This document shows positions 5,319-40,342 of a stretch of DNA of 41,120 nucleotides, piece by piece. Source of the stretch: a virus; IMG/VR virus record IMGVR_UViG_3300040751_002580, positions 1-41,120 of that record; one strand, written 5' to 3'. The translations under genes were made by a program, and so were the position numbers. The notes under the pieces were generated by a model that ran no database searches, was not told where the DNA came from, and worked only from the letters and a program-made list of their open reading frames with translations. The stretch's first letter is position 1; every line of letters starts with the position of its first letter.

Positions 5319-6234
5319 AACATTTCGTGTAATTGACTATGACATAATTTATCTTAGTTACGACGAACCTAATGCAGAACAAAACTATGCAGATTTGTGC
5401 AGAAAGGTTCCGTGGGCAAAGCGTGTACACGGTGTAAAAGGCAGCGACAGCGCACATAAAGCAGCCGCACAACAAAGTGAAACTGATCGTTTTATTACTA
5501 TTGACGGCGATAATCGTATCCGTGACGACTTTTTAACACAGTCAATTGACTTTGACGAAAATGTTGATTTAACAAACAAAGTTATTAGTTGGACTGCTGA
5601 AAATGTAATTAACAAACTAAAGTATGGCAATGGTGGCATTAAATGCTGGCCCAAAGAGCATGTGTTGAACATGCGTACACACGAAAATGCTGATCCATCT
5701 AACCCTCACGCACAAGTAGATTTTTGTTGGGATACAGAATATGTTCAAATGAATGGAACATTTAGCGATATCTACAATAATGCTACGTCACAACAAGCAT
5801 GGCGAGCCGGCTTTCGTGAAGGTGTTAAAATGGCATTAGATCGCGGACTTCGTGTAAGTGTAGAAGACTTTCATAAAAATCATTGGAAGAATTTACATCG
5901 TTTGTATGTTTGGCTAATGGTAGGTGCAGATGTAGAAAACGGACGTTGGGCAATTTACGGTGCAAGAGAAGGTCTGTATAAAACAATGTGTACTGATTGG
6001 GATTTTGTAAATGTGCGTGATTTTGAATGGCTGAATAATTATTGGGATAGCAAAGATATAGACGAAGATCAAATGGAAGAAGACACTGTTGACTTTGGTT
6101 ACAAGTTAATTGAAGAACTCGATTTACCTATTGCTGCTGAACCTCTAGACGGTAATCAAAGTTTGTTTTTTAAGACAGTTTATCAAAACCCTGCACGTGA
6201 TAACAGCAAACAATTTTTGGATAGAGAACAATAA
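5311..6234 (+). CDS. Glycosyltransferase-like DGD-motif protein (307 aa)
   Basis: The N-terminal domain reads DIIYLSYDEPNAEQNY (11-26), then RVHGVKGSDSAHKAAA, then FITIDGDNRI with D65-G-D67 as probable metal ligands. The layout (first strand, helix, substrate loop, acidic DxD-type motif) matches a GT-A-like nucleotide-sugar domain. The same block occurs in the second half of the protein encoded at 10439-11473. The C-terminal half contains W-rich helical segments (AWRAGFREGVKMAL; FEWLNNYWDSKD). I chose the ATG at 5311, with GAGG at 5301-5304, over the in-frame TTG at 5308. Overlaps its upstream neighbour by 8 bases and shares one base (TAATG) with the radical SAM gene downstream. Catalytic activity is inferred. 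Confidence 0.55.
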   Translation: MTKTFRVIDYDIIYLSYDEPNAEQNYADLCRKVPWAKRVHGVKGSDSAHKAAAQQSETDRFITIDGDNRIRDDFLTQSIDFDENVDLTNKVISWTAENVINKLKYGNGGIKCWPKEHVLNMRTHENADPSNPHAQVDFCWDTEYVQMNGTFSDIYNNATSQQAWRAGFREGVKMALDRGLRVSVEDFHKNHWKNLHRLYVWLMVGADVENGRWAIYGAREGLYKTMCTDWDFVNVRDFEWLNNYWDSKDIDEDQMEEDTVDFGYKLIEELDLPIAAEPLDGNQSLFFKTVYQNPARDNSKQFLDREQ

Positions 6235-7607
6235 TGGAACGTAGCGAAAGCGAAGAAATCAAACGCATTGATGCTATAACACAAGAAATTTCTCCTACGT
6301 TTTGTTTTGCTAAATGGTATCATGCAAACATTTATTTTCAAACAGGCGAAACACACAGTTGTTATCATCCAGCACCTCACAAGATTGATACAGCACCATT
6401 GTTAAACAATCCTAGTGCTATACATAACACTGCACAAAAGAAACAAGAACGTGCTGCTATGATGAAAGGCGAACAGCCTAGCGGATGCAGCTATTGCTGG
6501 AAAATCGAAGCACTAGGAAAAGATTACGTTAGCGATCGTAAACAGCGCAACCAGACTATTTTCTTTAAAAACAGATTAGCCGCAGTTAAAGAAGGCGGCG
6601 CAGAATTTGATGTAAATCCAGAATATTTAGAAGTATCGTTTGGAAACGAATGTAACTTTCGTTGCGGGTATTGTCATCCTAAAGCAAGTAGCAGATACTA
6701 TCAAGAGATCAAACAGCATGGCCCGTATACAAATGTAAAAAATCACAGATGCGATATTGATTGGTTTCAAATATTTGAAGAAGAAAATAACCCGTATCTT
6801 GATGCATTTTGGCGTTGGTGGCCTGAACTTAGTAAAGAGCTACATATTCTGCGTATCACAGGCGGTGAGCCTACAATACAACAAAGCACATACAGATTGT
6901 TTGACATGCTAGATGCAGATCCTAAGCCTAACCTTGAATTAAACGTTAACAGCAACTTAGGCGGCAAACCAAAGCAATTAGAAAAGTTTACCAATCGTGT
7001 AAATGACTTGCTAACAAACAATAAAATTAGACGTTTTAAGTTGTTTACAAGCATTGATACTTGGGGATCTCGTGCAGAGTATATTCGTGATGGGTTGGAC
7101 ATTGAAGTGTTTGAGCGTAATCTAGATTATTGGATGCGTAACACAACTGCACCAATGACATTAATGATTACATTTAATATTTTTAGTGTAACTACGTTCC
7201 GTACACTACTTGAAAAAATACTCGAATGGCGGGCTAAGTACAACGATGTAGAAACATACCGCTGGCAGCGTTTAGGATTTGATACTCCGCATTTAAAAGA
7301 ACCATTGCAGTACGATATTAATATTTTGCCTAAAAATTATATGAGCTATATGCATGACCATTTGCAATTCATTAAAGAAAATGTAGATGACAATCGCAAA
7401 GATGCATTTAGTACTATTGAGTATGAAAAATTTCGTCGTGTAGTCGATTACATGAATACTACAGAATATCCATTAGAAAAAATTATTCAAGGACGTAGAG
7501 ATTTTTATAATTTCTTTACTGAACAAGATCGACGTAGAGGAAATGATTTCCAACAAACTTTTCCTGAAATGTCAGACTTTGTTAAGCTCTGCAAAGAATA
7601 CATCTAA
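6234..7607 (+). CDS. Radical SAM enzyme with N-terminal twitch-type domain (457 aa)
   Basis: The radical SAM cluster motif is C140-NFR-C144-GY-C147, followed by the TGGEP motif that contacts S-adenosylmethionine. An N-terminal domain carries four further cysteines: C24, C43 (TFCFAKW and HSCYHP) and the pair C85/C88 (GCSYCW). This order is what I know as the 'twitch domain-containing radical SAM protein' type, with an auxiliary iron-sulfur cluster placed before the core. It is the most upstream of nine such proteins in the window. The enzyme should cleave SAM to a 5'-deoxyadenosyl radical; substrate unknown. Its 3' end overlaps the convergent gene by 36 bases. Confidence 0.85.
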   Translation: MERSESEEIKRIDAITQEISPTFCFAKWYHANIYFQTGETHSCYHPAPHKIDTAPLLNNPSAIHNTAQKKQERAAMMKGEQPSGCSYCWKIEALGKDYVSDRKQRNQTIFFKNRLAAVKEGGAEFDVNPEYLEVSFGNECNFRCGYCHPKASSRYYQEIKQHGPYTNVKNHRCDIDWFQIFEEENNPYLDAFWRWWPELSKELHILRITGGEPTIQQSTYRLFDMLDADPKPNLELNVNSNLGGKPKQLEKFTNRVNDLLTNNKIRRFKLFTSIDTWGSRAEYIRDGLDIEVFERNLDYWMRNTTAPMTLMITFNIFSVTTFRTLLEKILEWRAKYNDVETYRWQRLGFDTPHLKEPLQYDINILPKNYMSYMHDHLQFIKENVDDNRKDAFSTIEYEKFRRVVDYMNTTEYPLEKIIQGRRDFYNFFTEQDRRRGNDFQQTFPEMSDFVKLCKEYI

Positions 7608-8192: not shown

Positions 8193-8228
8193 TTTCTTTT
8201 CTCTTAAATACAGTATAATGGAGGTACC
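8193..8228. promoter_or_regulatory. Divergent intergenic region with extended -10
   Basis: The 36-base gap between divergent starts contains TATAAT at 8214-8219 for the rightward gene, followed by GGAGG at 8220-8224 just before the ATG at 8229. No good -35 box is visible 17 bases upstream. On the other strand, TATACT (8217-8212) could serve the leftward gene, also with a poor -35. A very short or absent leader is implied for the desaturase gene if the TATAAT is used. Confidence 0.35.
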
Positions 8229-8975
8229 ATGCATAATACATTAGTAAGGTCTACACAAATACTTAACCATCTACTATTTTTACTAGGTTTATATCTGGTT
8301 GTTTTTCAAAGCGTATCGGCAATGTATTTTTTATACAGTGTTTTGATATATTGGTTTATTGGAGTATTTGGTATAAACATTGGATATCATAGATTAATTT
8401 CTCATCGTAGCTTTAACACATACAAGCCTGTAGAATATTTTTTAGCATTTGTTGGATGTATTACAATGATCGGTAGTCCACTAGCATGGTCTGCTTTACA
8501 CAGACAACACCACGGACATGCAGAGACTGATAAAGATCCTCACAGTCCGTATCAGCTAGGATGGTTTCGTGCATGGTTTGGATTTTGGAATATAGATGTA
8601 ATCAATCCAAAATATATCAAAGATATTCGTAAAATACCATTTTACAAATACACACACAAATATTATTTTGCTATTAATATTATCTATGTTGTAGCACTTG
8701 GTTTAATTGATCCTTTGTGGATTGTATTTGGATATGCTATTCCAACAGTGTTTGTGTTACACAGCACAAGTGCAATTATTGTTATTGCACACATACACGG
8801 TTATAAAAATCATAAGATTAATGATGAAAGTAGAAACAGTTGGATTGCAAGTTTAATAACATTAGGCGAAGGGTGGCACAACAATCATCATGCTAACAGC
8901 AAGGCTTGGAACAATCAAGAAAACTGGTGGGAGTTTGACCCACCAGCATGGATTATACGTTTAATTAAGAATTAA
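8229..8975 (+). CDS. Membrane fatty acid desaturase, delta-9 type (248 aa)
   Basis: The three histidine boxes of membrane di-iron desaturases are all present: H54-RLIS-H59, H91-RQ-H94-H95, and H217-NN-H220-H221. Hydrophobic segments lie at about residues 13-30, 33-52, 70-88 and 145-190, as in acyl-CoA/acyl-lipid delta-9 desaturases. At 248 residues it is short but similar to bacterial forms. The protein should sit in the host inner membrane and introduce a double bond into acyl chains using O2 and electrons from a host ferredoxin-type donor. A strong GGAGG precedes the ATG. Its stop codon overlaps the convergent tail-fibre gene within a TTAA. It may alter host lipids or a lipid part of a glycan; this is inference. 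Confidence 0.9.
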   Translation: MHNTLVRSTQILNHLLFLLGLYLVVFQSVSAMYFLYSVLIYWFIGVFGINIGYHRLISHRSFNTYKPVEYFLAFVGCITMIGSPLAWSALHRQHHGHAETDKDPHSPYQLGWFRAWFGFWNIDVINPKYIKDIRKIPFYKYTHKYYFAINIIYVVALGLIDPLWIVFGYAIPTVFVLHSTSAIIVIAHIHGYKNHKINDESRNSWIASLITLGEGWHNNHHANSKAWNNQENWWEFDPPAWIIRLIKN

Positions 8976-10438: not shown

Positions 10439-11473
10439 ATGTATGATATTTTCTTTATTGGATCTCCTGATCATAAAAATTACATTTCTTTAAAATCTAG
10501 ATTTCCTACGGCCAAGTGTGTAGAATCTGTAGGATCTGCAAAAACAAAATCCTTGACTAAATTTTTATGGATAGTTTATCCAGATCTGATTGTGCAAGAC
10601 GACTTTGAATTTGATTATGAAGTTGATCAGTGGAGTATAGATTACACACACGTTTTTCAAAATGGAGAATACTATGATGGCATAGCATTAATGCCTAAAC
10701 ATAGCCATCACGGTCCAGGAGAAATAAAGTCTAGATTTTATATTAATAAAAAATATGTAGAAGTTTTAGCAAGTGTACCGGCTGAACAAAACTATGATAT
10801 TGTGTTTATAAGCTATCAAGAACCCGATGCTGATGAAAATTATAGTTCTCTTCAAAAAAGATTTCCTTCTGCTATGAGAGTGCATGGAGTCAAAGGTATT
10901 CATCAAGCACATATTGCAGCAGCGTCTAAAGTTAGTACCGAAATGTTTTATGTAGTTGATGGCGATGCACACATACAGCAAGATTTTAATTTTAACTATA
11001 ATGTCGAGCATCATAATAAACAAGCGGTACATGTATGGCGTAGTTTAAATCCTATAAACGGATTAGTATACGGCTACGGAGGTGTAAAACTACTGCCTAC
11101 AGAAAAAACACTGTTAATGGATACTGATAAACCTGACATGACAACAAGTATTAGTGATAAATTTGTAGCTATGCCTACAATTTCAAATATCACAGCATTT
11201 AATACAGATCCTTTTAATGCATGGAAAAGTGCATTTAGAGAGTGTTGTAAACTAGCATCAAAAGTTATTGATAGACAAAAAGATGACGAAACTAATCAAC
11301 GTCTGCGAACATGGTGTACATACACATTAGACAATGTACCATTTTCTGAAAATGCACTAGCAGGTGCAAAATCTGGAACTGCATACGGAACTCGTAATAA
11401 AGGCGACTTAGAAGCACTTAAAAAAATAAATGATTTTGAATGGCTCGAGGAGAAGTTTAATGGAAATATATAA
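10439..11473 (+). CDS. Two-domain glycosyltransferase-like protein; first domain degenerate (344 aa)
   Basis: The protein is an internal duplication. Residues 2-70 (YDIFFIGSPDHKNY...) and residues 118-180 (YDIVFISYQEPDADENY... RVHGVKG... VVDGDAHI) follow the same pattern. The second copy aligns with the protein at 5311-6234 and keeps the acidic motif D174-G-D176. In the first copy the equivalent stretch reads IVYPDLIVQDDF, so the DGD motif is lost. The C-terminal third (AWKSAFRECCKLASK, then DFEWLEEKF) also matches the 5311-6234 protein. No ribosome-binding site precedes the ATG, consistent with a leaderless transcript. Activity as a GT-A-type transferase is plausible for the second domain only. 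Confidence 0.6.
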   Translation: MYDIFFIGSPDHKNYISLKSRFPTAKCVESVGSAKTKSLTKFLWIVYPDLIVQDDFEFDYEVDQWSIDYTHVFQNGEYYDGIALMPKHSHHGPGEIKSRFYINKKYVEVLASVPAEQNYDIVFISYQEPDADENYSSLQKRFPSAMRVHGVKGIHQAHIAAASKVSTEMFYVVDGDAHIQQDFNFNYNVEHHNKQAVHVWRSLNPINGLVYGYGGVKLLPTEKTLLMDTDKPDMTTSISDKFVAMPTISNITAFNTDPFNAWKSAFRECCKLASKVIDRQKDDETNQRLRTWCTYTLDNVPFSENALAGAKSGTAYGTRNKGDLEALKKINDFEWLEEKFNGNI

Positions 11474-12503
11474 ACTTTTGGACAGATTTGAATTGCTGAA
11501 TGATAACACAGAATACTTTTCAGATTTGCGTAGAGCATACATTGATAAAGATTTAAGTTCTATCTTAGCATTTGTAGATGATGAAGAATTACGCAAAGCT
11601 ATTTTAACAAAGAATATACACAGTATTTTTAGACTTGTTGACAACAAACGGTGCATTGGCGAATTAGAAGATCTGCGAAAATCAGTAGTTGAACAAAATT
11701 TACATAGTTTGTTTAGAATTCTTCCAGGCAACGACGATTTACGTAAAGCCGTTATTGAAGAAAATATGCATAGTATTTTTAGGTTGATTGAAAATGAAGA
11801 TTTAAAAAAAGTTGTACTTGATGATAATGTATGGAGTGCATACAGATTATTACAAGATAAAACTTCTACAAATTTTGTAGATGCTTTTAAATATTTTGAA
11901 ACAAACAATATAGAAATTGACGAAGATTGCTTTAGTAGAGGTCAATTAAAAAGTAAAAAATGGTTAATTGAAACAGTTGAAAGTTTAAATTTAGACTTGG
12001 GTGTTGTGTTCTTGTGTGCCGGCTGGTACGCTACATTAGCTGTAATGATATTTGAATCTAAAAAAATTACTGTAGATAAAATTGTTAGTTTTGACATCGA
12101 TCCTTCTGTTTGGAAAATTGCTGAAATATTTAATAAACCGTGGGTAACAGATAATTGGAAATTTAAAGCCAGTACTGAAGACATACACGAAATACGATTT
12201 GAAGAACACATATATGATGTTAATAAATCCGATGGCAACAAACAAAGACTTTGGGCAGTACCTAATACAGTTATTAATACAAGTTGTGAACATATTGAAG
12301 ATTTTACAGGATGGTATGAAGGAATTGTTCCTGGGCAACTAGTCATACTTCAAGGAAACAATTACTTTGAAATTGAAGAACATGTAAATTGTAGTAAAGA
12401 TTTGCAAGAATTTAGTAATAAAGCCCCTATGAGTAACGTATTATACGAAGGCGAACTTGAATTACCAGAATACAAAAGGTTTATGAAAATTGGATATAAA
12501 TGA
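11460..12503 (+). CDS. Methyltransferase-like protein with N-terminal helical repeats (347 aa)
   Basis: I place the start at 11460 (MEIYKLLDRFELL), with GAGGAG at 11447-11452. An in-frame ATG at 11430 lies before this site. Residues 23-134 hold five repeats of about 21 residues. The C-terminal part looks like a class I SAM-dependent methyltransferase: VVFLCAGWYATLAVMIF is a variant motif I glycine loop, KIVSFDIDP supplies the acidic residue of motif II, and later strands read VINTSCEHIEDF and LVILQGNNYF. The glycine loop is poor in Gly, so cofactor binding is not certain. It overlaps its neighbours by 14 bases at both ends. Possible roles are methylating the product of the adjacent radical SAM enzyme or a sugar. 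Confidence 0.55.
   Translation: MEIYKLLDRFELLNDNTEYFSDLRRAYIDKDLSSILAFVDDEELRKAILTKNIHSIFRLVDNKRCIGELEDLRKSVVEQNLHSLFRILPGNDDLRKAVIEENMHSIFRLIENEDLKKVVLDDNVWSAYRLLQDKTSTNFVDAFKYFETNNIEIDEDCFSRGQLKSKKWLIETVESLNLDLGVVFLCAGWYATLAVMIFESKKITVDKIVSFDIDPSVWKIAEIFNKPWVTDNWKFKASTEDIHEIRFEEHIYDVNKSDGNKQRLWAVPNTVINTSCEHIEDFTGWYEGIVPGQLVILQGNNYFEIEEHVNCSKDLQEFSNKAPMSNVLYEGELELPEYKRFMKIGYK
11526..11862 (+). repeat. Five tandem ~21-residue helical repeats inside the methyltransferase-like gene
   Basis: Repeats start at residues 23, 44, 72, 94 and 115 of the encoded protein, with the shared pattern L-R-K-A-[VI]-x3-N-[LI]-H-S-[LI]-F-R-L. The second unit contains about six extra residues. The pattern resembles a short alpha-solenoid. 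The DNA copies are diverged, so this is an old protein repeat and not a recent DNA duplication. Confidence 0.75.
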
Positions 12504-12714
12504 GCTAAGTTTGCGAGAATTACAAAAAGAAAGTGCAAGAGCATTATGTACTATGCAAGCAACAAACGATAATATTTGGCAGTTTAACAAACAAGCCCAT
12601 CACGATAGTCAAAAATGGTATAAGGCTGTTATAGAATGGTATGTAAAACAATATGGCGACTTGCCTAGCAAAGCCGGACCTGGACAAGATGTAAAGTTGG
12701 TATTAGATGTATAA
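12490..12714 (+). CDS. Small protein of unknown function, TTG start (74 aa)
   Basis: The frame begins with TTG at 12490, with AAAGG at 12475-12479 ten bases upstream; there is no ATG near the 5' end. The protein looks helical with one Cys (C20) and many aromatic and polar residues (NIWQFNKQAHHDSQKWY). It overlaps the methyltransferase gene by 14 bases and the radical SAM gene by 8, so it is translationally coupled to both. A small protein immediately before a radical SAM gene could be a precursor peptide or a partner, but no leader/core structure or known recognition motif can be seen. Treat the function as unknown. Confidence 0.5.
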   Translation: MDINELSLRELQKESARALCTMQATNDNIWQFNKQAHHDSQKWYKAVIEWYVKQYGDLPSKAGPGQDVKLVLDV

Positions 12715-13786
12715 GTATGAAAACATAAAAACCATACACTTGGAAAATACACAAAACTGCCAAGCAAGTTGTCCTATGTGCGATCGTAATCAAAACGGCG
12801 GAGCAGTAAACCCACATATTGATTTAAGTGAATTAACACTTGATGACGCAAAACGTATTTTCGAACCAGAGTTTATTGCACAATTAAAAACTATGTACAT
12901 GTGCGGCAACTTAGGCGATCCTATTGTTGCCCGTGACACACTTGAAATATTCAAATATTTTAGACAGCATAACAAAGACATGTGGCTTAGTATGAATACA
13001 AATGCAGGAGCAAAAAATGAAGCATGGTGGACTGAATTGGCACGAACGTTTGGTCGTATGGGTGCTGTTATTTTTAGTGTTGATGGCCTTAGTGATACTA
13101 ATCATATGTACCGTCAAGGTGTTCAATGGGACAATGTTTTTAAAGCAATGAAAGCGTTTATTGCTGCTGGTGGCAGAGCACGTTGGGATTTTTTGATATT
13201 CGAGCATAATCAGCACCAAGTTGAAGAAGCAGAACGTATTGCAAATGAAATGGGCTTTGAAAAATTTGTTGCTAAAAAGACAGGACGTTTTATAACTGCT
13301 ACTAGTGAAAAGAAAGAACAGCACCAAGCGGTTGATCGTAAAGGCAATAAAACAACTGAACTTAAAAAACCAGATGAAAAGTTTCAAAACTCTGCAATTA
13401 AACAATACGATAAAGTAAAAGAAAAACACGGCACTATGGATGCATATTATGATCGTGCAGAAATACATTGCAAAGTAAAAGACGAAGGCAATTTGTTTAT
13501 TACAGCAGAAGGATTAGCAATGCCATGTTGTTGGACTGCTGGTCGTATGTATAAGTGGTGGCACAAAGATCCAAAACAAGAACAAGTATGGGATTTTATT
13601 GATGCAGCAGGCGGCAAAGATGCTATTAGTGCAAAACAGCACGGACTTCGTGCAGTGTTTGATACTGGAATCTTTGATCGAATTGAAGAAAGTTGGACTA
13701 AAGCAAGTGTTGCAGAAGGCAAACTTAAAGTATGCAGCATGAAGTGCGGCAAAGAGTTTGATCCGTTTGGATCACAGTTTAAGTAA
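12707..13786 (+). CDS. Radical SAM enzyme with C-terminal twitch/SPASM-like domain (359 aa)
   Basis: The N-terminal radical SAM motif is C-QAS-C-PM-C (residues 18-25), followed by DRNQNGG. The C-terminal domain carries C255, the pair C274-C275 (MPCCW) and C343-SMK-C347, which should hold an auxiliary iron-sulfur cluster as in twitch/SPASM proteins. It belongs to a five-member paralogous set here (also 15046, 23250, 28881 and 35566), all starting with a strand, then (T/N)x(D/N/R/K)C and ending with a C-x3-C pair. The mid-protein segment 195-245 is Lys/Glu-rich and variable. It overlaps the convergent radical SAM gene by 15 bases. Reaction is SAM-radical chemistry on an unknown substrate. Confidence 0.85.
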   Translation: MYKYENIKTIHLENTQNCQASCPMCDRNQNGGAVNPHIDLSELTLDDAKRIFEPEFIAQLKTMYMCGNLGDPIVARDTLEIFKYFRQHNKDMWLSMNTNAGAKNEAWWTELARTFGRMGAVIFSVDGLSDTNHMYRQGVQWDNVFKAMKAFIAAGGRARWDFLIFEHNQHQVEEAERIANEMGFEKFVAKKTGRFITATSEKKEQHQAVDRKGNKTTELKKPDEKFQNSAIKQYDKVKEKHGTMDAYYDRAEIHCKVKDEGNLFITAEGLAMPCCWTAGRMYKWWHKDPKQEQVWDFIDAAGGKDAISAKQHGLRAVFDTGIFDRIEESWTKASVAEGKLKVCSMKCGKEFDPFGSQFK

Positions 13787-31126: not shown

Positions 31127-31922
31127 ATGTACTAATAAAATCCTGTGGTCTATATTGTTCAAAACCCCAAGCACGTTCTCTACACCACCAGCAATGTTTT
31201 TCTACAGGCCTAACTGCAAAGCAGTCTTTTGTAAAATATTCTGTTTCGTGCATTTCTGCTTCGCAACTTCTAGTAATAGGAAACAAACTATCAAGTAAAT
31301 CAAATTTATTATAAAAATAAGAAACTGCACGTTTGTTACTAAACAAGAACGGGTATTGTACCCATTTGCTTTTTAATTTTTTAAGTATAACGTTTGCTTC
31401 GTCTCTTTCTTTACTGCTATCGCCATAATCGGTATCTCCTACTTCTGTTGTAGGAGGATTAGCAGTTAGTCCGTTAAACAGTGTTGCAAGTTCGTATTTT
31501 CTAAAATACGTATCAATATGCGAACTCATTATAACTTTTTTGTCTTCGTCGGTAATAGGTAATGCATGATTCGGCATTGGAAATATTAAATGCTGCTCAA
31601 ATTTAAAATCTAGCAGTTCTTCAATTTTTCTTAAATTTCCCCATGCATGTTTTATGTTGTAAGGACGAGCTAAAAATTCTGTAGTGATAGGAAATACAGG
31701 ATTGTTAGTTCCTAATTCTTTTATAGTTTTTACAACTAGATACGTGGTCATTGCACTATCAGGGCCGCCTGAAATAAACACAGACACTGGCTTTCCTGTT
31801 TTTTCTATACCTATTTCTATTTTATCTTGTTCTGTGTAAAAGTACTTTACAATTTCTAAATCATGCAATGATGCATTTGGTTCTGCGGTTGAATAATGTC
31901 TATTTAATTCTTCTACTAACAT
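31110..31922 (-). CDS. QueC-like PP-loop ATPase with altered zinc site (270 aa)
   Basis: The PP-loop is S51-GGPD-S56. The C-terminal site reads ITRSCEAE, then TKDCFAVRPVEKHCWWCRER. In the two rightward copies the last three Cys form CGxCxxC, but here the first of those is replaced by Glu, while another Cys (KDC) lies ten residues earlier. A four-Cys zinc site is still possible with changed spacing. AGGA lies seven bases from the ATG. It sits two bases after a 2OG-oxygenase-like gene and overlaps the downstream radical SAM gene, so all three are coupled. Confidence 0.75.
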   Translation of the reverse strand: MLVEELNRHYSTAEPNASLHDLEIVKYFYTEQDKIEIGIEKTGKPVSVFISGGPDSAMTTYLVVKTIKELGTNNPVFPITTEFLARPYNIKHAWGNLRKIEELLDFKFEQHLIFPMPNHALPITDEDKKVIMSSHIDTYFRKYELATLFNGLTANPPTTEVGDTDYGDSSKERDEANVILKKLKSKWVQYPFLFSNKRAVSYFYNKFDLLDSLFPITRSCEAEMHETEYFTKDCFAVRPVEKHCWWCRERAWGFEQYRPQDFISTYANSK

Positions 31923-31924
31923 CT

Positions 31925-32635
31925 TTATTTCCTATTTAAGATAAACAGTAATCCTGTTTTTTGAGTTATTCCCTTTTGTTCTAAGTTTGTTGCACAGTGT
32001 GCAAATTTGCTATCAAACAAAAAGATATCTCCTACGTTCCATTTGTATTCGCATTTAATACTAAATCCTTTATACGCTTCTTTCCAAAATTCCCAATGAT
32101 TAACCCAGTGTTTTTTTAAAGACTCTTCTGATATTTTATATTCATCACTCCATCCGCCAAAGTAATTAGGATCTCTAATAGGCTTGTTGTAAAATGGTTT
32201 ATAATCGTCTGGTTTATTATATACAGGAGAAATCCATTCTACGTTTTCTGTTGCAGTTTGATCAAAAATCACAGTGTGTGTATCTACTATTTCTGGTTCT
32301 ATTGATAGCGGTATTATACCTTGATAAAAGCTAACTGGGCTAGTATCGGTGTGCAATGCGTAAGGTACTTGCAGATCATAAAAGTTAACTCCATAAAATT
32401 CGTATTCGTCCTTGTCAAAAGGTAAAAACTTTGCTATCCAATCGAACATAGCGTCTTCGTGAAAAACAGTTTTGTTTGTTATATTATATACATTATTTGC
32501 TCGACCTGCCCTTGCCATTCTGGGTTTATGAGATTCGGGATCATTTTTAAGCTGATCTTTTACACTAAAAAGCCACGCTATGTCTTCTTTAGTTAATGCA
32601 TTTTCTAATGTTATAGTATCTTCATATGATTTCAT
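31925..32635 (-). CDS. 2-oxoglutarate/Fe(II) oxygenase-like protein (236 aa)
   Basis: The iron-ligand pattern is H95-T-D97 (ALHTDTS) and a distal H213 (KFAHCATN), followed by K226 in QKTGLLF, where an Arg or Lys usually binds 2-oxoglutarate. Strands around these motifs (DIFLFDSKFAH) fit the double-stranded beta-helix fold. The likely reaction is O2-dependent hydroxylation, substrate unknown. It overlaps the upstream QueC-like gene by 14 bases. A second oxygenase-like gene lies at 33389, so the operon alternates oxygenase and PP-loop ATPase. Confidence 0.65.
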   Translation of the reverse strand: MKSYEDTITLENALTKEDIAWLFSVKDQLKNDPESHKPRMARAGRANNVYNITNKTVFHEDAMFDWIAKFLPFDKDEYEFYGVNFYDLQVPYALHTDTSPVSFYQGIIPLSIEPEIVDTHTVIFDQTATENVEWISPVYNKPDDYKPFYNKPIRDPNYFGGWSDEYKISEESLKKHWVNHWEFWKEAYKGFSIKCEYKWNVGDIFLFDSKFAHCATNLEQKGITQKTGLLFILNRK

Positions 32636-33392
32636 TTTCTTTTAATCCCCATTCTCTTTCTTTACACCACCAGCAAACACCACACGGAATAGTCTGATCC
32701 TTTCCTGTAATAATGTCAGCGTCACAGCTACATGTTAACGGTAAAATTGTATCAATTAAATTGTATTTTTTATAAAGTTCAAAAACGCCTTTTTTATTTA
32801 TTAGTGCTAGTGGACTAGCACCGTGTGTTGAAAAGTAAACTGATGTTGCAGTTGATCTAGAGTTTTCAGATGTTAAAACTCCAAAATTATTCATTACCTC
32901 TGCCGGAGGATTATGTGTTAACCCGTTGTAATTAAATGTAGGATCTTTAAATTTTTTACTAGTATACTTTAATACTTCGAGTATTTTCTTTTCAGCATAC
33001 GGAACTTTAAACTTTGGATTGCACATTTCAACCGGAACATTGATTAATATTTGTTTTTTAAAAATGTTTAGTCCGGTTAATTCTTTAATTTTGTTTATAA
33101 TATCTTTTGTTAGTTGTCTATTATCGGCTTTTATTGGAAAGTAAAACGTAATAGGAACAATTTTAACATCTAAATCATATTTTTTAATTATATAGCATAA
33201 AATATATAAAGCTAATGCACTATCTGCACCTCCAGATAACTGAAAAACAATTGACTTAGAATTTTTAGATATAGGAAAAATTACATTGCCAACAGAAGTT
33301 TCAATAATTTCTTCAAAATCTGCAATTGTTTCGATTTCGGTAATCGTACGCTTGTTGTTTATAAATGTTTCTGTATATCGTTTCAACATCAA
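32622..33392 (-). CDS. QueC-like PP-loop ATPase (256 aa)
   Basis: The PP-loop is SGGADS within VFQLSGGADSALALYILC. The C-terminal site is complete: LTCSCDAD, then IPCGVCWWCKERE, matching the CGxCxxC zinc pattern of QueC. Two ATG codons lie at the start (33392 and 33389); the first makes an ATGA overlap with the upstream oxygenase-like gene. It is the shortest of the four copies and the closest in length to QueC. Its role is probably ATP activation of a carboxylate on the same unknown intermediate. Confidence 0.78.
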   Translation of the reverse strand: MMLKRYTETFINNKRTITEIETIADFEEIIETSVGNVIFPISKNSKSIVFQLSGGADSALALYILCYIIKKYDLDVKIVPITFYFPIKADNRQLTKDIINKIKELTGLNIFKKQILINVPVEMCNPKFKVPYAEKKILEVLKYTSKKFKDPTFNYNGLTHNPPAEVMNNFGVLTSENSRSTATSVYFSTHGASPLALINKKGVFELYKKYNLIDTILPLTCSCDADIITGKDQTIPCGVCWWCKEREWGLKENEII

Positions 33393-33994
33393 ATTTTACC
33401 TACAGTATAACCTAGACCGTTAATACTTAATTTATAACTGTCTTCGTTTTCTATAAAATTGCTACTACTGTGTATTTGACTAGCATCAAAAATAATGCAG
33501 GTGCCTTTTTTCCAAACCATGTCATCTACCAGTTTGCAGTCTTCAACGTTGAATTTAATATTTTCGTCTTCTACCATATTACGATCAACTAATTTAAAAA
33601 ACTCACCGTTGCGCCCGAGAACAACTTTATCGTCATACCATTGATTAAATGTTAGTGTGCTAGGATGTTTTCCGTTCCACTCTAATGGTAATATAAATCC
33701 ACGCTGACACTGCGTATTCCACTCTGGGTAATAATTTCTATCGTTGTGTTGCGGTACCGGATTTCTAGATAAAAAAACTTCAAACTCCCACTCTAGGTCG
33801 TTATTTTCAGGAAGTGATTGTATTATGTTGTTAACACTTTCTTTTATTTCTGTATTAATCTCTTTAAATATATTTCCGTTTCTATTTTTACCTGGATAGT
33901 TTTCGTCATCTTCTAGGACTTTTTTAGCCTGCTCTAATATAGCATTAATTTTATCTTCGCCTAAATCTAAATCATATATTCCTGGTTTTATCAT
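33389..33994 (-). CDS. 2-oxoglutarate/Fe(II) oxygenase-like protein (201 aa)
   Basis: H83-N-D85 (PQHNDRN) and H175 (SQIHSSSN) form the expected HxD...H iron triad, and K188 (YKLSING) stands where 2-oxoglutarate is usually bound. FILPLEW and CIIFDASQIH are the typical strands around the triad. It differs clearly in sequence from the second oxygenase-like gene, so the two probably act on different positions or substrates. It overlaps the upstream B12-type radical SAM gene by four bases and the QueC-like gene by four. Confidence 0.6.
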   Translation of the reverse strand: MIKPGIYDLDLGEDKINAILEQAKKVLEDDENYPGKNRNGNIFKEINTEIKESVNNIIQSLPENNDLEWEFEVFLSRNPVPQHNDRNYYPEWNTQCQRGFILPLEWNGKHPSTLTFNQWYDDKVVLGRNGEFFKLVDRNMVEDENIKFNVEDCKLVDDMVWKKGTCIIFDASQIHSSSNFIENEDSYKLSINGLGYTVGKI

Positions 33995-35505
33995 ACGCTA
34001 GGTCCCATTGCTCCTGCACCTTCGTTGTAGTGGTCGTATATATGTACTACTTCCTGTTTTTGTGCAGTAATTTTTTCTAATTCAGCTAACAAGTGATCGG
34101 TTGCTTTTTCCACTACTGGATAATTTAATTCTAAGCATTTTTCTTTTAAACGTAGCCATCGACGTATACGCACTTCTCTAGTATTATCTTTGTAAACCCA
34201 GTGATTGTTTTCATCCCAAGTAATGCCTAACTTTTCTTGATTCCAAAACAAAGGAGATCCTGGTACAATGTCTAATGTAGGACCTAATGCCACACTTCGT
34301 ATTAGTCCTGCTTCGTTTATCCAGTTATACTTTTCTAACATGTCTAAAGTTTTTTGGAATTCTTCTTCGGTTTCTGTAGGATATCCTACAAGCAATAACC
34401 ATGCCATTTCTATTTTATATTTTGCACACATACGGAAAGTAAAGTCCATAGCTTCGTCGTCGAACATTTTTTTCATGTCATCACGAACTTTTTCACTTCC
34501 GCTTTCTACACCGATACTAACAAATCGTAAACCTGCCTTAAACATTAAGTCATAGACTTCTTCGTTCATTTGGTGCTGCGGCCTAGCAATAAATTGTCCT
34601 TGCCATTTAACAGAATCCATTTTTCCTTGTTTTTTATAATCAATTAGTGTAGTGCAAATATCTTTGAGTTGTTTAACACTTCCATTTAACAAACTATCTG
34701 TAAACAAAAAACGTTTACTTCCATATGCATTATTTTGTGTACGCATCTCTTCGGCAACACTTTGCCCACTTCGATATCTAAATTTAGGCCAGACACTTTG
34801 GATATCACAGAATGTGCATTTACGAACACATCCTCTACTGCCAGTAATATACACGAATTCAGTGCCCATCTTTGATTCATCTTTTATGCGAGGATCAAAC
34901 CAAGTGCCCGGATATTTTTCCATTGGAAAGTCACTGTAATCAGGAATCGGAATAGTATCTAAATCGTCTATTTGTGCTGCTGGATTGCCATTAATTCCAG
35001 GTGCATCTAAATTTCCGTTTAAAATATTTACAATAGCTTCTTCACCTTCGCCGATTACGTATGCATCGGCTAATCCGTTTTTGTACAAGTTTGGACCTGT
35101 AAATTCACAAAACGGTCCGCCTGCAACAATTTTAATGTCAGGAAGTTCTTTTCTTAGCATTTTACATACACTAATACTAATCCATTTACTACGTTGACTA
35201 AAAATTGTAATTCCTACCCATTTAGGATTTTTATTTTTAATAGTTTCTATCCATTTTGGCACACATGGTTGAATATGTTCATTCCAAAACTCTTCGAATT
35301 TATCTTCATATCTAAAAGTTAAATCAGTGTCAAACCAAACATGTCCGTGTTTTTCAGTATCGATGCTGTGCCATAAATCTAAATTTAAGTCGTAGCAGTA
35401 GGCACTAAAGCCATGATTTTCTACCATAGCTTTTAGAATAGCCGGAGCAGTAATAGGTGCTCGTAATTCCAATCTCGGCAGTGTTAAAAACACAATATCT
35501 GTCAT
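33991..35505 (-). CDS. Cobalamin-binding-domain radical SAM enzyme (504 aa)
   Basis: Residues 1-165 form a Rossmann-like domain as in B12-binding radical SAM proteins (WVGITIFSQRSKW; IKIVAGGPFCE; YVIGEGEEAI). The usual DxHxxG base-off motif is not evident. The core motif is C226-VRK-C230-TF-C233, followed by FLFTDSLLNGS and FVSIGVESGSE, which are typical of the BchE/MiaB-like class. Such enzymes often methylate unactivated carbons or form rings. It is the first gene of the leftward operon, with AGAGAG upstream of the ATG. Confidence 0.85.
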   Translation of the reverse strand: MTDIVFLTLPRLELRAPITAPAILKAMVENHGFSAYCYDLNLDLWHSIDTEKHGHVWFDTDLTFRYEDKFEEFWNEHIQPCVPKWIETIKNKNPKWVGITIFSQRSKWISISVCKMLRKELPDIKIVAGGPFCEFTGPNLYKNGLADAYVIGEGEEAIVNILNGNLDAPGINGNPAAQIDDLDTIPIPDYSDFPMEKYPGTWFDPRIKDESKMGTEFVYITGSRGCVRKCTFCDIQSVWPKFRYRSGQSVAEEMRTQNNAYGSKRFLFTDSLLNGSVKQLKDICTTLIDYKKQGKMDSVKWQGQFIARPQHQMNEEVYDLMFKAGLRFVSIGVESGSEKVRDDMKKMFDDEAMDFTFRMCAKYKIEMAWLLLVGYPTETEEEFQKTLDMLEKYNWINEAGLIRSVALGPTLDIVPGSPLFWNQEKLGITWDENNHWVYKDNTREVRIRRWLRLKEKCLELNYPVVEKATDHLLAELEKITAQKQEVVHIYDHYNEGAGAMGPSV

Positions 35506-35541
35506 AAAATCTCTCTAGAATTTGGTATACTGTTAAATACA

Positions 35542-35553
35542 TTATATTTATTA
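35542..35553 (-). promoter_or_regulatory. Candidate late-type promoter for the leftward operon
   Basis: On the minus strand this reads TAATAAATATAA, containing AATAAATA, seven of eight positions of the T4 late box. It lies about 40 bases upstream of the ATG at 35505, in the 60-base gap between divergent genes. No sigma70-type pair with proper spacing is visible in this gap for either strand. Confidence 0.35.
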
Positions 35554-35565
35554 TAAGGTATGTTT

Positions 35566-36642
35566 ATGTTTCTGGAACCTGAGTCAATACAAGAATTGCA
35601 TGTTGAAATTACCAACAAATGCAATGCCGCCTGTCCTATGTGTGATAGAAATCAGTTTGGAGGACTGTTAAATCCTGGCAGAGGATTAAATGAATGGAAT
35701 TTAAATGATATTTCTAAAGCATTTGCAGATTTGCCCAATTTAAGATTTGTTTATTTTTGCGGTACACACGGCGATCCTATTGCAGCAAAGCATGTTTTTG
35801 AAGCAGTTAAAGCAGCTAAAGATGCAGGCGCTCAAATAGAAATGTTTACCAATGGTAGCTTAAAAACCGAAACCTGGTGGAAACGATTTGTTGATATACT
35901 TGACAGCGGCGATAGAATTACATTTGCTATTGATGGAGTTGAAACTAATCATTTATATAGACAAAATACAGATGTAAATAAAATTTTAAAACACCTAAAA
36001 ATTGTGTGCGATAGCCCTGTACAAACACGGTGGGATTATCTTGTATTCAAACACAATGAATACGAAATGGAAAGCAGTAAAAAATTAGCTAAACAAATGG
36101 GCGTAGACCATTTTAGATTTAGAAGAACTCCGCGATTTGATAGATTTAATCCGTACCCTGTATTAGATGCTAACGGAAATACTACACATTATTTAGAACC
36201 TCCTGTCGACACAGAATACAGACACCCAAGTTTAAAAGAAATGACTGATTTTCTCAAAGAGATAAAAACAGACCCTAAAGAAACACTAAACACATTACAA
36301 GATTTTAAATATGCCGACAAGCCGCTTCCTGATACAAACTGGAAGATAGAATGCATCTACAAAGAATCAAAAAAAATGTATATTAACAGCAGAATGGAAG
36401 TATTTCCATGTTGTTACATAAGCGATCAATATGAAACTTTTAAAACTGTGTCTAATGCAGAATTAAAATATCCATTTGGAGAGTTAGAACTCAAGGACAA
36501 AACATGGAAACAAATATTAGAACATGAGTTTTTTGAACAATTAATGTCTAGTTGGACACAAAGTAACGTTATTCCAAGATGCATACGTACCTGTGGTATA
36601 GTCAAAAGAGAAGCAGAACAGAATTTAAAGGTAAAATTATGA
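35566..36642 (+). CDS. Radical SAM enzyme with C-terminal twitch/SPASM-like domain (358 aa)
   Basis: I place the start at the ATG at 35566, with AAGG seven bases upstream; the ATG at 35560 would leave only one base to that site. The cluster motif is NKCNAACPMC followed by DRNQFGG, nearly the same as in the 12707 protein. The C-terminal set is ECIYKES, FPCCY and RCIRTC. It is the only member of its type with no N-terminal-twitch gene beside it. Instead it is coupled (ATGA) to a peroxiredoxin-like gene. Confidence 0.85.
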   Translation: MFLEPESIQELHVEITNKCNAACPMCDRNQFGGLLNPGRGLNEWNLNDISKAFADLPNLRFVYFCGTHGDPIAAKHVFEAVKAAKDAGAQIEMFTNGSLKTETWWKRFVDILDSGDRITFAIDGVETNHLYRQNTDVNKILKHLKIVCDSPVQTRWDYLVFKHNEYEMESSKKLAKQMGVDHFRFRRTPRFDRFNPYPVLDANGNTTHYLEPPVDTEYRHPSLKEMTDFLKEIKTDPKETLNTLQDFKYADKPLPDTNWKIECIYKESKKMYINSRMEVFPCCYISDQYETFKTVSNAELKYPFGELELKDKTWKQILEHEFFEQLMSSWTQSNVIPRCIRTCGIVKREAEQNLKVKL

Positions 36643-37232: not shown

Positions 37233-37257
37233 CAAATCAAAAAAACGATAGTATAAT
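37229..37257 (+). promoter_or_regulatory. Perfect sigma70-type promoter abutting the start codon
   Basis: TTGACA (37229-37234), a 17-base spacer and TATAAT (37252-37257) match consensus exactly. The -35 box overlaps the stop codon of the upstream gene. Six bases separate TATAAT from the ATG at 37264, the same geometry as the promoter at 10404-10432, so the transcript should be leaderless. Confidence 0.8.
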
Positions 37258-37263
37258 ATAAAC

Positions 37264-38388
37264 ATGACAGAAGATTTAAAATGGTCAAACTATGACTTTA
37301 CAAAAATACCATTCGATGACATTGTTCAGGTTGGACAACGTACACTACTTTATCGTGACATTTTTACTGTTAGTTGGCTTCTTGGTCGCTTCTGTAACTA
37401 TCGTTGTAGTTATTGTTGGCCATATGCAAGATCGGATAGAAAAGATCATAGACCAACCGAACTCTGTCTTGCTACAATAGATGAAATAAAGAGGCAAGCC
37501 CGTGAAAATGGATTTAATAGTTATCATTTTAGTCTTAGTGGCGGGGAGCCTACTTTCCATCCTGGCTACTTGGACATTCTACAACATTTGGCTGATGACG
37601 TAAACAACACCAACTATACAAGTGTGCATATGACATCAAACTGTAGTCGTAACATGGCATGGTTTGAAAAGTATGTAGAAGCGGTTAAGCCATTCCACCG
37701 TGCTAGTATTACAGCTAGTTTACACACAGAGCATCTTAATACACGAGAAAAGATGCAAGACTTTGCAGACAAACTAATATTATGTCAGGAGAACGATGTA
37801 CAAGTTACAATCAACATGGTTATGGTTCCAGAATGGTTTGAAAAGGATTGGGAAAATGCCCTTTTCTTCCACGAGCAAGGAATCAACGTTACCCTTAAAC
37901 CACAGTCGGATCCGACTGCAAGCAGAGTGGTTGATGGGTACACAGACGACATGCTCAAGCGACTCCACAACGGAATGCCACAACGAGCCTACACAGAGAG
38001 CAAACGCAAGTGGGAAGGACGTCCTCGTCCTAACTTCCAAATACCGAGTGAAATAAATGGTAAAAATGATGCCAGCGTTCCTTGGCATATGCAGGTAGAA
38101 TTTAGAGATAAGCAAGGTAATCCTTGGTATATGGATCAAGCGGAGAGATTTAATGCGTTTAACTTCAATAAATTCAAAGGCTGGAATTGCAATGCTGGCT
38201 ATCAAGGTATTATTATTCGTGAGCCTGATGGCAGTGTTAAGCGAAGTTATAGTTGTCATGATGTACCTCTTGGTAATATAGAAACAGGTTTTAAACTGTT
38301 TGATAAACCTATGCCTTGCATAACAGAAAGTTGTGTAAGCAGTGCAGATAGTAAAATACCAAAGCGTAAAATAGTCGAAGATAAATAA
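37264..38388 (+). CDS. Radical SAM enzyme, third type, relative of 20405 (374 aa)
   Basis: The core motif is C44-NYR-C48-SY-C51, followed by LSGGEP. Later cysteines (GWNC, YSC, MPC, ESC) fit one auxiliary cluster; the Cys-dense end of the 20405 protein is replaced by a shorter tail. SVKRSYSCHDVPLGNI resembles the end of SPASM-type domains. The 37801-38040 part is about 48% GC by hand count, well above the ~27-35% around it, and it uses CGT, CTC and CCG-type codons more often. That suggests a separate origin or selection for high expression. It has no ribosome-binding site, as expected if it is translated from a leaderless mRNA. Confidence 0.82.
   Translation: MTEDLKWSNYDFTKIPFDDIVQVGQRTLLYRDIFTVSWLLGRFCNYRCSYCWPYARSDRKDHRPTELCLATIDEIKRQARENGFNSYHFSLSGGEPTFHPGYLDILQHLADDVNNTNYTSVHMTSNCSRNMAWFEKYVEAVKPFHRASITASLHTEHLNTREKMQDFADKLILCQENDVQVTINMVMVPEWFEKDWENALFFHEQGINVTLKPQSDPTASRVVDGYTDDMLKRLHNGMPQRAYTESKRKWEGRPRPNFQIPSEINGKNDASVPWHMQVEFRDKQGNPWYMDQAERFNAFNFNKFKGWNCNAGYQGIIIREPDGSVKRSYSCHDVPLGNIETGFKLFDKPMPCITESCVSSADSKIPKRKIVEDK
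38380..38387 (+). promoter_or_regulatory. Candidate T4-like late promoter
   Basis: GATAAATA overlaps the stop codon region of the upstream gene and matches seven of eight positions of the T4 late box. RNA would start near 38393, at the foot of the structured leader described next. Confidence 0.4.
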
Positions 38389-38392
38389 CATT

Positions 38393-38473
38393 GCTGCGGG
38401 AAACCGCGAACCTACTGGTTCCTCATACTACTGTCAACAAAGACCAGATTTCTGTGAACAAAGGAGTAGTATG
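38393..38473 (+). promoter_or_regulatory. Structured 5' leader with start-codon-hiding stem
   Basis: Three stems can be drawn. GCGG-GAAA-CCGC (38396-38407) carries a GNRA tetraloop. GAACC-TACT-GGTTC (38408-38421) follows directly. CATACTACT (38424-38432) is a perfect nine-base complement of AGTAGTATG (38465-38473), which includes the ATG and the end of the AAGGAG site. A repeated GT(C/G)AACAAAG lies inside the last loop (38433-38442 and 38454-38463). It matches no riboswitch I can name. It could be a translational operator or ligand switch. Confidence 0.55.
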
Positions 38474-40342
38474 AAAACCGTATATTTTGCACAAATTAAT
38501 AATGTTATAGCAGAGGCAATATTTTTACCTCTGAGTGCAGCCTATGTTTGGGAATATTGTAGAAGCCAAGCAGATATTTCTACTAATTGGAAATTAGGAA
38601 ACATTATATTTGAAAGAGATACAGTAGAAAATTATTTAGATCAAATACACGATCCGGATATATTTGCATTTAGTACATACGTCTGGAATTGGGAAATTAC
38701 CAAAAAGTTAGCACTTGCTATAAAACAAAAATATCCTAATTGTACCATTGTTATGGGCGGACCTCAAGTTCCATACAAACAAAGTTGGCTTAAAGAAAAT
38801 AGTGATATATGCGATATTATTGTTACATATGCAGGTGAAAAAACATTTGCCGAGATACTACGAGGAAACCTAACGCATCCTGGTATAATGACTATAGATA
38901 ATTATGTTACTCCAAGATCGGACAAAGAACTTAATGATATACCTAGCCCGTATTTAAGTGGGCTAATGGATAGCTTAATGAAACCAGGAAAACAATACAG
39001 TGCAATAATTGAAACAAATCGCGGTTGTCCGTATGCTTGTACATTCTGCGATCAAGAAGCATTGTACTATAATAAAATATCGCAGTTTGAATACAATAGA
39101 GTTATTGCAGAAATTAATTGGGTTGTTGATCATAATATAGATTTTTTATATTTTGCCGATAGCAATTTAGGTATTTTTGATCGTGATGTAGAATTTATAA
39201 AATATATAGCACATTGTAAAAAAATTACAGGATATCCTCGTAATATAGATTATGCAACAGCAAAACAACAGCCAAAACGAATCGTTGAATTAGGACGTAT
39301 ATTAAACCAGGACGCTAAAATTAAACGCGGTGTGACTATAGCATTGCAAAGTATGAATCCTAAAACTTTACAAGCTATTAAACGCATTAATATTGCTAAT
39401 AATAAATTAGAAGAAATTGTAAATGCCTATAATACCGAAGGAGTTGATAACTATTGTGAGTTGATTATTGGATTACCAGAAGAAACTGTAGAATCTTGGA
39501 TAAATGGTATCGGAAAAATACTTGAGTTAGGAAGTGATCATGCATTAACAGTGCATCCTTTAAGCGTAGTGCCTAACACACCGTTTTCGGACAGTGAATA
39601 CATAAACAAGTATGGATTAAAATATACACCAACTCCTGCACCTGCTGGAGGAAATACATATCCTGAAGATAGTCAAGGCGAAATAGATTATGTATGTTAT
39701 CAAAGTAATAGTTTTGACAAAGAACAATACATGGATATGTACTTCTTTGCAAAAGGAATAGTAATTCCGCATCACTATCATGGAGTTAGTCAAGTAGTTG
39801 CAACATATTTAAATAGGCTACATAACATACCGTTAATTGATTTTTATAAATTCTTGTTTGAATGGAGCAAATGTAGCAACGGTATTTTAAATGCAGAATA
39901 TAAATCTCATACTCAAAGTTTAAATGAAAGTTTATTTAATATGCAAACATGGGGTCGTCCTATAAATGATCTAGATAATTTTCATTTTCAAGACAACGCT
40001 GCTACAGCAGCATTTTTATATAACAACATAGACGAAGTTTACAAAGAACTAAAGAGTATAGTGTTTATTAAATACAATGTTGACATTAGTGAAGTTTTAA
40101 GTTATAATAAGCACATACTTGATCTTTATGACAAAAGCATATACAATACATCGTTTTCAAAAAATTGGCATTCTTGGTTTTTTGAAAACAAAGAATTAAA
40201 AGATGTGGAAGTTGTTATCGAAACACACCCAACACAATATACAAGTATAAATGATCATGCCAAGCATTTATTTTGGTATGGCCGTAAAAGCAAAAGATGC
40301 TTTTTAAAATGTAAGGAATTTGAATATGATACGCATTGCTGA
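38471..40342 (+). CDS. Cobalamin-binding-domain radical SAM enzyme (623 aa)
   Basis: Residues 1-140 form a B12-binding-type Rossmann domain (IFAFSTYVWNW; CTIVMGGPQVP; YAGEKTFAEIL) without an obvious DxHxxG. The core has C186-PYA-C190-TF-C193, then FADSNLGIF and ITIALQSMNPKTL-type strands (GVTIALQSMN near residue 290). YCELIIGLPEET is the usual late motif of this class. A 200-residue C-terminal extension is helical and unassigned. AAGGAG precedes the ATG but is partly paired in the leader. It overlaps the peroxiredoxin-like gene by 17 bases. Confidence 0.85.
   Translation: MKTVYFAQINNVIAEAIFLPLSAAYVWEYCRSQADISTNWKLGNIIFERDTVENYLDQIHDPDIFAFSTYVWNWEITKKLALAIKQKYPNCTIVMGGPQVPYKQSWLKENSDICDIIVTYAGEKTFAEILRGNLTHPGIMTIDNYVTPRSDKELNDIPSPYLSGLMDSLMKPGKQYSAIIETNRGCPYACTFCDQEALYYNKISQFEYNRVIAEINWVVDHNIDFLYFADSNLGIFDRDVEFIKYIAHCKKITGYPRNIDYATAKQQPKRIVELGRILNQDAKIKRGVTIALQSMNPKTLQAIKRINIANNKLEEIVNAYNTEGVDNYCELIIGLPEETVESWINGIGKILELGSDHALTVHPLSVVPNTPFSDSEYINKYGLKYTPTPAPAGGNTYPEDSQGEIDYVCYQSNSFDKEQYMDMYFFAKGIVIPHHYHGVSQVVATYLNRLHNIPLIDFYKFLFEWSKCSNGILNAEYKSHTQSLNESLFNMQTWGRPINDLDNFHFQDNAATAAFLYNNIDEVYKELKSIVFIKYNVDISEVLSYNKHILDLYDKSIYNTSFSKNWHSWFFENKELKDVEVVIETHPTQYTSINDHAKHLFWYGRKSKRCFLKCKEFEYDTHC

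Follow-up and report, generated by a model that had tools for sequence, protein, structure and literature searches.

A conserved core module within a radical SAM gene island of uncultured T4-like marine phages and its counterpart in Bdellovibrionota

Radical S-adenosylmethionine (SAM) enzymes carry out chemistry that few other enzymes manage. We analysed the entire IMG/VR virus record IMGVR_UViG_3300040751_002580, a linear contig of 41,120 nt (hereafter the window), in which 18 radical SAM genes lie between positions 6234 and 40342. This high density is not peculiar to the window contig; it is the norm in a group of T4-like phages that is widespread but uncultured. A core recurs in nearly all of them, consisting of the radical SAM genes g15, g18 and g39, the glycosyltransferase-like genes g08 and g13, and g14; most other radical SAM genes are variable cassettes. 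Since the island of radical SAM and sugar-transferring enzymes adjoins tail-fibre genes, and since most of the core is also present in chromosomes of some Bdellovibrio-like bacteria, the island is probably a pathway for making and decorating an unusual surface molecule.

Results

The 18 radical SAM genes and their classes

We translated 42 main frames of the window. No end repeats were found in the 41,120-nt record, and its content is the island together with its fibre-like edge only. The stretch from 6234 to 40342 is 98.7% coding, with a single gap above 100 bp. An earlier reading made from the letters and open reading frames (the sequence-only reading) had counted 18 radical SAM genes in about 34 kb, all keeping the cluster cysteines, and had divided them into nine with an N-terminal twitch domain, five with a C-terminal one, two of a third type and two of cobalamin type. 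Profile search together with motif inspection placed all 18 in the superfamily and reproduced this division exactly; the CxxxCxxC motif is intact in every one, and its cysteines are invariant in alignments. The Pfam Radical_SAM model (PF04055) matched all 18 at E≤0.002 and 14 above the gathering cut-off. Below it fell g09 and g16, which exceed the NF033640 cut-off (170 bits), as well as g17 (E 0.0018) and g30 (E 2.4e-5), whose membership rests on these matches and on alignment with g15, g25 and g37.

The N-twitch genes are g09, g16, g18, g20, g24, g26, g28, g29 and g31. All but g29 (146.2 bits) passed the NF033640 cut-off over their full length, and the auxiliary-cluster cysteines C9, C27, C90 and C93 are invariant in the alignment of the nine; the name of this family itself assigns no reaction. 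The C-twitch genes (g15, g17, g25, g30 and g37) can be aligned end to end, with invariant auxiliary-cluster cysteines in the C-terminal region. They scored 27.5–84.8 bits against TIGR04317, the tungsten-enzyme radical SAM maturase model with a cut-off of 380. Their best solved relative by profile is a sugar-nucleoside enzyme, the cytosylglucuronate decarboxylase BlsE (E 1.4e-8), but the match covers part of the chain and g37 reached about 32 bits of the 400 required by TIGR04466. BlsE is a lead and not a membership. The same applies to the third-type genes g22 and g39, for which the nearest solved relative by profile is the anaerobic sulfatase maturase. Both cobalamin-type genes, g36 and g40, carry a B12-binding domain above cut-off; g40 matches the KedN5 B12-radical SAM C-methyltransferases over about 365 residues (1.5e-60), whereas its 205 bits stay below the 700 required by NF033712. 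The best viperin score in the window (NF038283) was 41.8 bits, for g39, against a cut-off of 180, and every maturase equivalog cut-off was missed by a wide margin across the 18 proteins.

Each of the 16 twitch and third-type proteins has its best in-window paralog at 22–34% identity, and neither g36 nor g40 finds one in the window across half of its chain. Orthologs at 62–93% identity exist in other phage contigs for 14 of the 18, and for several in bacterial chromosomes too; g28, g29, g30 and g40 found distant relatives only (25–31%). Because the paralogs are so much further apart than the orthologs, these sequence comparisons give good support to the proposal that the genes are diverged paralogs rather than multiples of a single function; the paralogy is ancient. 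Recent gene amplification is ruled out by the same paralog identities. A chimeric assembly, which the sequence-only reading had named as its own refutation, is excluded because the gene order from g01 to g39 is kept in many independent contigs (e.g. G005, G009, G010, G011 and G012).

A phage group rich in radical SAM genes

Scanning IMG/VR with g18 returned 197 relatives, the best 80 of which share 84–91% identity with it, and each of the 34 records searched further held 4–21 radical SAM matches. A scan with the g39 alignment returned at least 497 relatives on contigs of up to 381,886 bases, and 15 large records contained 8–23 radical SAM genes each. Altogether, 49 related records carry 4–23 apiece, and main-cluster densities in 24 contigs range from 3.5 to 8.3 per 10 kb. 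The description of the density in the sequence-only reading as extraordinary for phage DNA holds against cultured phages, since INPHARED gave no match to g39, g08 or g03, but the density is ordinary within the phage's own group. For g18, the cultured relatives were two Vibrio phages at 21% identity; no cultured phage relatives were found for g34 or for a 728-aa protein of G031.

G031, the longest fetched contig, encodes a T4-type DNA polymerase, portal and baseplate (phrog_262, phrog_213 and phrog_13211), and its portal shares 47–52% identity with those of jumbo phages like Atu_ph07, PA5oct and CBB. The island lies between the tail/baseplate and fibre-like genes on one side and the remaining genome genes on the other.

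The core module and its cassettes

Because the related records were chosen by the presence of g18 or of g39, the gene used is conserved in its own set through selection; g15 and g08 were not selected for, nor was g18 in the set found through g39. Among 23 fetched contigs, g15 and g18 occur in all, g08 in 22 and g39 in 20–21. In the set of 18 large records, which includes 14 retrieved with g39 and some fragments, g15 and g18 each occur in 17. The g08 family is present in 23 of 24 records, and g14-like proteins in 21 phage contigs. Genes in related contigs were called by a simple longest-frame script, so start codons are uncertain (e.g. those of g24 and g25).

The core proteins g08 and g13 are homologous to each other, with a DGD motif that is invariant in the alignment. 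For g08, Pfam and a PDB sequence search gave no match, but an AlphaFold2 model (pLDDT 92.3) had weak Foldseek matches to GT-A enzymes, peptide and glycan glycosyltransferases among them, the best to SunS (7msp, E 8e-4, TM ~0.33) and others to WrtF, GalNAc-T and ThuS. Both g08 and g13 are predicted to be GT-A-fold glycosyltransferase-like proteins. The third partner, g14, is predicted to have a class I SAM-methyltransferase fold behind a helical N-terminus modelled at low confidence. In that N-terminal part (11430-12000) we also observed repeats of the type DLRKAVxxxNxHSIFRLxxN.

QueC-like PP-loop genes directly adjoin radical SAM genes in the pairs g18–g19, g20–g21 and g31–g32. Their profile matches QueC (2pg3) over its full length (E 2.9e-4), and the SGG loop and four cysteines are invariant in 29 homologs; only g34 of the four passed the PF06508 cut-off. 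These features resemble the QueC/Cap9 enzymes. The difference is that the window holds four diverged copies beside radical SAM or oxygenase-like genes, and no preQ0 pathway. The neighbours named by the sequence-only reading were borne out for the PP-loop, pyridoxal phosphate (PLP)-like, short-chain dehydrogenase-like and glycosyltransferase-type genes; the oxygenases g33 and g35 are called so from sequence appearance, having no Pfam match. In sister-phage islands, representatives of sugar-type families are present (NDP-sugar epimerase, UDP-glucose/GDP-mannose dehydrogenase, DegT sugar aminotransferase and FkbM methyltransferase), together with Trp halogenase, AMP-ligase, aldehyde dehydrogenase, TauD, Asp/Arg hydroxylase, QueC, Asn synthase and AdoMet decarboxylase. 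The earlier idea of a multi-step pathway is supported indirectly by the conserved core and its co-travelling cassettes.

A bacterial counterpart in Bdellovibrionota

The C-twitch alignment was used to scan 84,980 genomes of bacteria and archaea. Loci with orthologs of g15, g18 and g39 together belong mainly to Bdellovibrionales, Bacteriovoracaceae, Halobacteriovoraceae and Oligoflexia. The g39 gene is present in 17 of 291 Bdellovibrionota genomes, once in each apart from one split over two contigs, and in only one (G050) of the 399 genomes of the phylum to which G050 belongs. The smallest bacterial set, in G035, comprises orthologs of g08, g13, g18, g15 and g39 flanked by unrelated genes. Larger sets also stand in chromosomal surroundings: 15 radical SAM genes in G042 lie between the EF-Tu gene and the secE, nusG and ribosomal protein genes, and 13 in G041 lie beside housekeeping genes. 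The cassette of g31, g36 and g37 (and g25) with a PP-loop gene recurs in Bdellovibrionota as well, g36 at 65–69% identity, and neighbours of the core loci include family-2 glycosyltransferases.

In the trees, the viral sequences form one clade for each core radical SAM gene: for g39 (support 0.976) including one metagenome-assembled genome (MAG) contig that is viral, for g18 (support 0.94), and for g15 together with three doubtful MAG contigs (support 0.925). The viral clade is nested among Bdellovibrionota for g18 and g39 and stands beside them for g15. This topology fits one ancient transfer followed by inheritance by descent, with roots that rest on distant paralogs, some low inner supports and uncertain MAG binning; some core-bearing MAG contigs (L181/L223), of the same 46,940 bases as one IMG/VR record, are viral contigs binned with bacteria.

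On one Bdellovibrionota contig (G210:C21, L286-L287), pheS-pheT is followed by a block in phage order, g02/g03-g04-g05-g06-g08. G210 also has g18, which branches as the sister of the viral clade in the g18 tree, a double protein of g08/g13 type and g39. The block may be what is left of a phage, or else the module in a bacterial version. Another recurrent feature of Bdellovibrionota radical SAM loci is a gene pair in which a multi-pass membrane protein is encoded together with a partner of about 140–170 aa (L190:91-1381, L231:11216-12578, L196:13689-14949, L247:5103-6552 and 8483-9917, and L188:1017-2308), without a Pfam match for the three proteins tested. Proteins of about 500 aa at L196:8379-9917 and L188:14195-15700 carry CxxxCxxC near the N-terminus (CRETCDFC and CSKACDFC); the one in L196 has a family-2 glycosyltransferase domain and is possibly a degenerate radical SAM domain fused to a glycosyltransferase.

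Discussion

The sugar, halogenase, ligase, PP-loop and other enzyme families of the sister islands led us to rate highest a modular pathway whose glycan or glycoconjugate product would serve the surface of the virion or of the host, a tentative reading to which we give somewhat less than an even chance. One glycan or glycoconjugate unit would be assembled and tailored by the core (g08, g13, g14, g15, g18 and g39): g08 and g13 would attach sugar to an acceptor, and the core radical SAM enzymes would make radical changes (oxidation, epimerisation, decarboxylation or C–C bond formation) either on that sugar or on what carries it. Exchangeable, phage-specific cassettes may add further groups: N-twitch radical SAM with QueC-like PP-loop, B12-radical SAM with C- and N-twitch, PLP-type and others; the sister-phage cassettes with halogenase and NDP-sugar enzymes may do likewise. 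Most likely the product would be displayed on the tail fibres of the phage itself or on the surface of the infected cell, and its variability would be due to a role in recognition or competition. Several points weigh against this. No export or polymerisation genes (flippase, polymerase) were identified in the island, and the structural match of g08 is remote. Twitch/SPASM domains are best known from peptide maturases. The halogenase, Asp/Arg hydroxylase and PP-loop enzymes of the cassettes fit amino-acid or peptide chemistry equally well, and the core may play another role in Bdellovibrionota.

Protein maturation is the runner-up, although we consider it unlikely: the radical SAM enzymes would act directly on residues of virion proteins, for example g02/g03 or further fibres, in the manner of maturases of ribosomally synthesised and post-translationally modified peptides (RiPPs), introducing cross-links, epimerisations, thioethers or methylations, with glycosyltransferases as extra decoration. 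The conserved auxiliary-cluster cysteines of the twitch/SPASM domains and weak matches to many peptide maturase models speak for it, as do the peptide glycosyltransferases SunS, ThuS and GalNAc-T among the structural neighbours of g08, the Trp halogenase and Asp/Arg hydroxylase families in sister islands, and the co-occurrence of the g02/g03 family with the island in 22 contigs and in the bacterial locus G210. However, the maturase cut-offs were all missed widely, most Bdellovibrionota core loci lack a g02/g03 relative, no small precursor gene was seen in the densely coding island, and none of the 18 radical SAM proteins had a PqqD/RRE (RiPP recognition element) Pfam match. A classical RiPP cluster with its own precursor gene was rejected, as no gap could hold one and no RRE match was found.

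Lower still we place remodelling of the envelope glycans of the infected cell against competing phages (superinfection exclusion) with the virion unchanged. Pelagimyophage islands with glycosyltransferases and radical SAM cassettes have been read so (PMC7029224), and the Bdellovibrionota counterparts sit among family-2 glycosyltransferases; yet the island adjoins the phage's own fibre genes and no host-type flippase, ligase or O-antigen gene was identified in it, and sequence alone does not separate this explanation from the surface glycan reading. That the island makes a diffusible small molecule during infection (an antibiotic, a signal or an anti-defence nucleotide) seems improbable. Its mix of halogenase, AMP-ligase, QueC and B12-radical SAM genes resembles natural-product clusters, but the island yielded no gene for a carrier protein, for condensation or for export, and a viperin-type antiviral nucleotide was rejected on the missed cut-off. 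Hypermodification of phage DNA, of 7-deazaguanine or pyrimidine type, is very improbable. QueC-like PP-loop proteins in the island and PTPS/QueD-family genes elsewhere in six of the 18 large records would suit it; against this, PTPS was not found in the other 12 (some of which are fragments), lies outside the radical SAM cluster where present, and the core also occurs with glycosyltransferases in bacterial chromosomes.

Returning to the surface glycan reading, its more specific form appears possible but rather doubtful to us: the radical SAM triad and two GT-A glycosyltransferases would constitute an undescribed surface-modification system that a widespread clade of large marine phages acquired through a single ancestral transfer from Bdellovibrio-like bacteria, that grew in these phages by cassette exchange into an exceptionally dense viral set of radical SAM enzymes, and that makes a new class of strain-variable, radically tailored glycan or glycoprotein.

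T4-like marine viruses with many radical SAM genes are already known. TARA_ERS488813_N000010, an uncultured 183-kb T4-like marine virus, has 12 radical SAM genes and an A-type Fe-S carrier (Nishimura et al. 2017, PMC5332604). In the passages of that paper describing this virus they are reported as Fe-S metabolism genes, without a core module, radical SAM classes, partner enzymes or a bacterial counterpart, and it is this description that sets the two accounts apart. Pelagimyophages have radical SAM cassettes and glycosyltransferases in a hypervariable host recognition cluster by the tail fibres (Zaragoza-Solas et al. 2020, PMC7029224), a variable island like the present one; the difference is that here the sister-phage portal is closest to those of Atu_ph07-, PA5oct- and CBB-like jumbo phages, and that g39 and g08 are absent from INPHARED. 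Radical SAM enrichment was also reported from Tasman Sea viromes (PMC7150976). In the literature searched, which held few subscription papers and preprints, neither the core module nor its glycosyltransferase partners nor the Bdellovibrionota counterpart was found to have been described before.

One phage group, seen in hundreds of metagenome contigs, devotes 10–50 kb to radical SAM enzymes. Its conserved core supplies six defined genes that could be expressed and assayed, and the product might also be reached through the bacterial counterpart, possibly in culture. Such work would reveal what marine phages place on their own or host surfaces; many uncharacterised radical SAM ortholog groups are added as well.

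Other features of the window and related contigs

Table 1 Features of the window, with the evidence for each assignment.
Feature	Coordinates	Strand	Evidence or remark
g02, g03, tail-fibre-like, edge of island	556..2672	+	family in 22/23 sister contigs; possible modification acceptors
g05, g06, mutually homologous, family-8-type glycosyltransferase look	3079..4753	+	sequence reading; no Pfam match at E≤0.01
g08, core, GT-A-fold glycosyltransferase-like (predicted)	5308..6234	+	invariant DGD; AlphaFold2 and Foldseek
g09, N-twitch radical SAM	6234..7607	+	NF033640 311.7 bits
g11, fatty acid desaturase family	8229..8975	+	PF00487
g13, second core GT-A-like (predicted), g08 homologue	10439..11473	+	alignment with g08
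g14, core, class I SAM-methyltransferase fold (predicted), N-terminal helical repeats	11430..12503	+	predicted structure
g15, core C-twitch radical SAM	12707..13786	+	PF04055 32.6 bits; 23/23 contigs
g16, N-twitch radical SAM	13772..15019	-	NF033640 252.2 bits
g17, C-twitch radical SAM	15046..16095	+	weak TIGR04317-type match; alignment
g18, core N-twitch radical SAM	16107..17510	+	NF033640 421 bits
g19, QueC-like PP-loop	17494..18342	+	profile and motifs
g20, N-twitch radical SAM	18339..19598	+	NF033640 200.8 bits
g21, QueC-like PP-loop	19591..20415	+	profile and motifs
g22, third-type radical SAM	20405..21583	+	PF04055 38.3 bits
g23, short-chain dehydrogenase-like	21564..22124	+	PF00106, weak
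g24, N-twitch radical SAM	22084..23250	+	NF033640 249.2 bits
g25, C-twitch radical SAM	23184..24308	+	ortholog adjoins B12 cassette in one Bdellovibrionota chromosome
g26, N-twitch radical SAM	24301..25641	+	NF033640 364 bits
g27, PLP-decarboxylase-like	25619..26506	+	PF00282, weak
g28, N-twitch radical SAM	26469..27716	+	NF033640 200 bits; close ortholog not found
g29, N-twitch radical SAM	27697..28884	+	NF033640 146.2 bits, below cut-off; close ortholog not found
g30, C-twitch radical SAM	28881..29978	+	alignment; close ortholog not found
g31, N-twitch radical SAM, B12 cassette	29954..31174	-	NF033640 308 bits
g32, QueC-like PP-loop	31110..31922	-	profile and motifs
g33, 2-oxoglutarate oxygenase-like	31925..32635	-	sequence appearance only; no Pfam match
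g34, QueC-like PP-loop	32622..33392	-	PF06508 26.0 bits, cut-off 22
g35, 2-oxoglutarate oxygenase-like	33389..33994	-	sequence appearance only; no Pfam match
g36, cobalamin-binding radical SAM	33991..35505	-	PF02310 and PF04055; 65–69% identity to Bdellovibrionota orthologs
g37, C-twitch/SPASM radical SAM, B12 cassette	35560..36642	+	profile matches
g39, core third-type radical SAM	37264..38388	+	PF04055 59.4 bits; relatives at at least 497 viral loci
g40, cobalamin-binding radical SAM, distant KedN5 relative	38471..40342	+	NF033712 205 bits; B12-binding domain
g41, redoxin family	40320..40895	+	PF08534

Outside the island, a gene for a giant protein of the structural region, about 4,600 aa long, lies between the baseplate and fibre genes (G031:107141-121060, L086-L087; G012:78278-92056). 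Near the islands of 16 phage contigs there is a protein that looks nitroreductase-like by its sequence (e.g. G023:12007-12663), which is absent from the window. Among the large records (G332, G333, G337, G338 and G344, as well as G340 and G335), PTPS/QueD genes and A-type Fe-S carrier genes each occur in six of 18, away from the radical SAM island; five records have both, and in four of these the two genes are at most about 4 kb apart.

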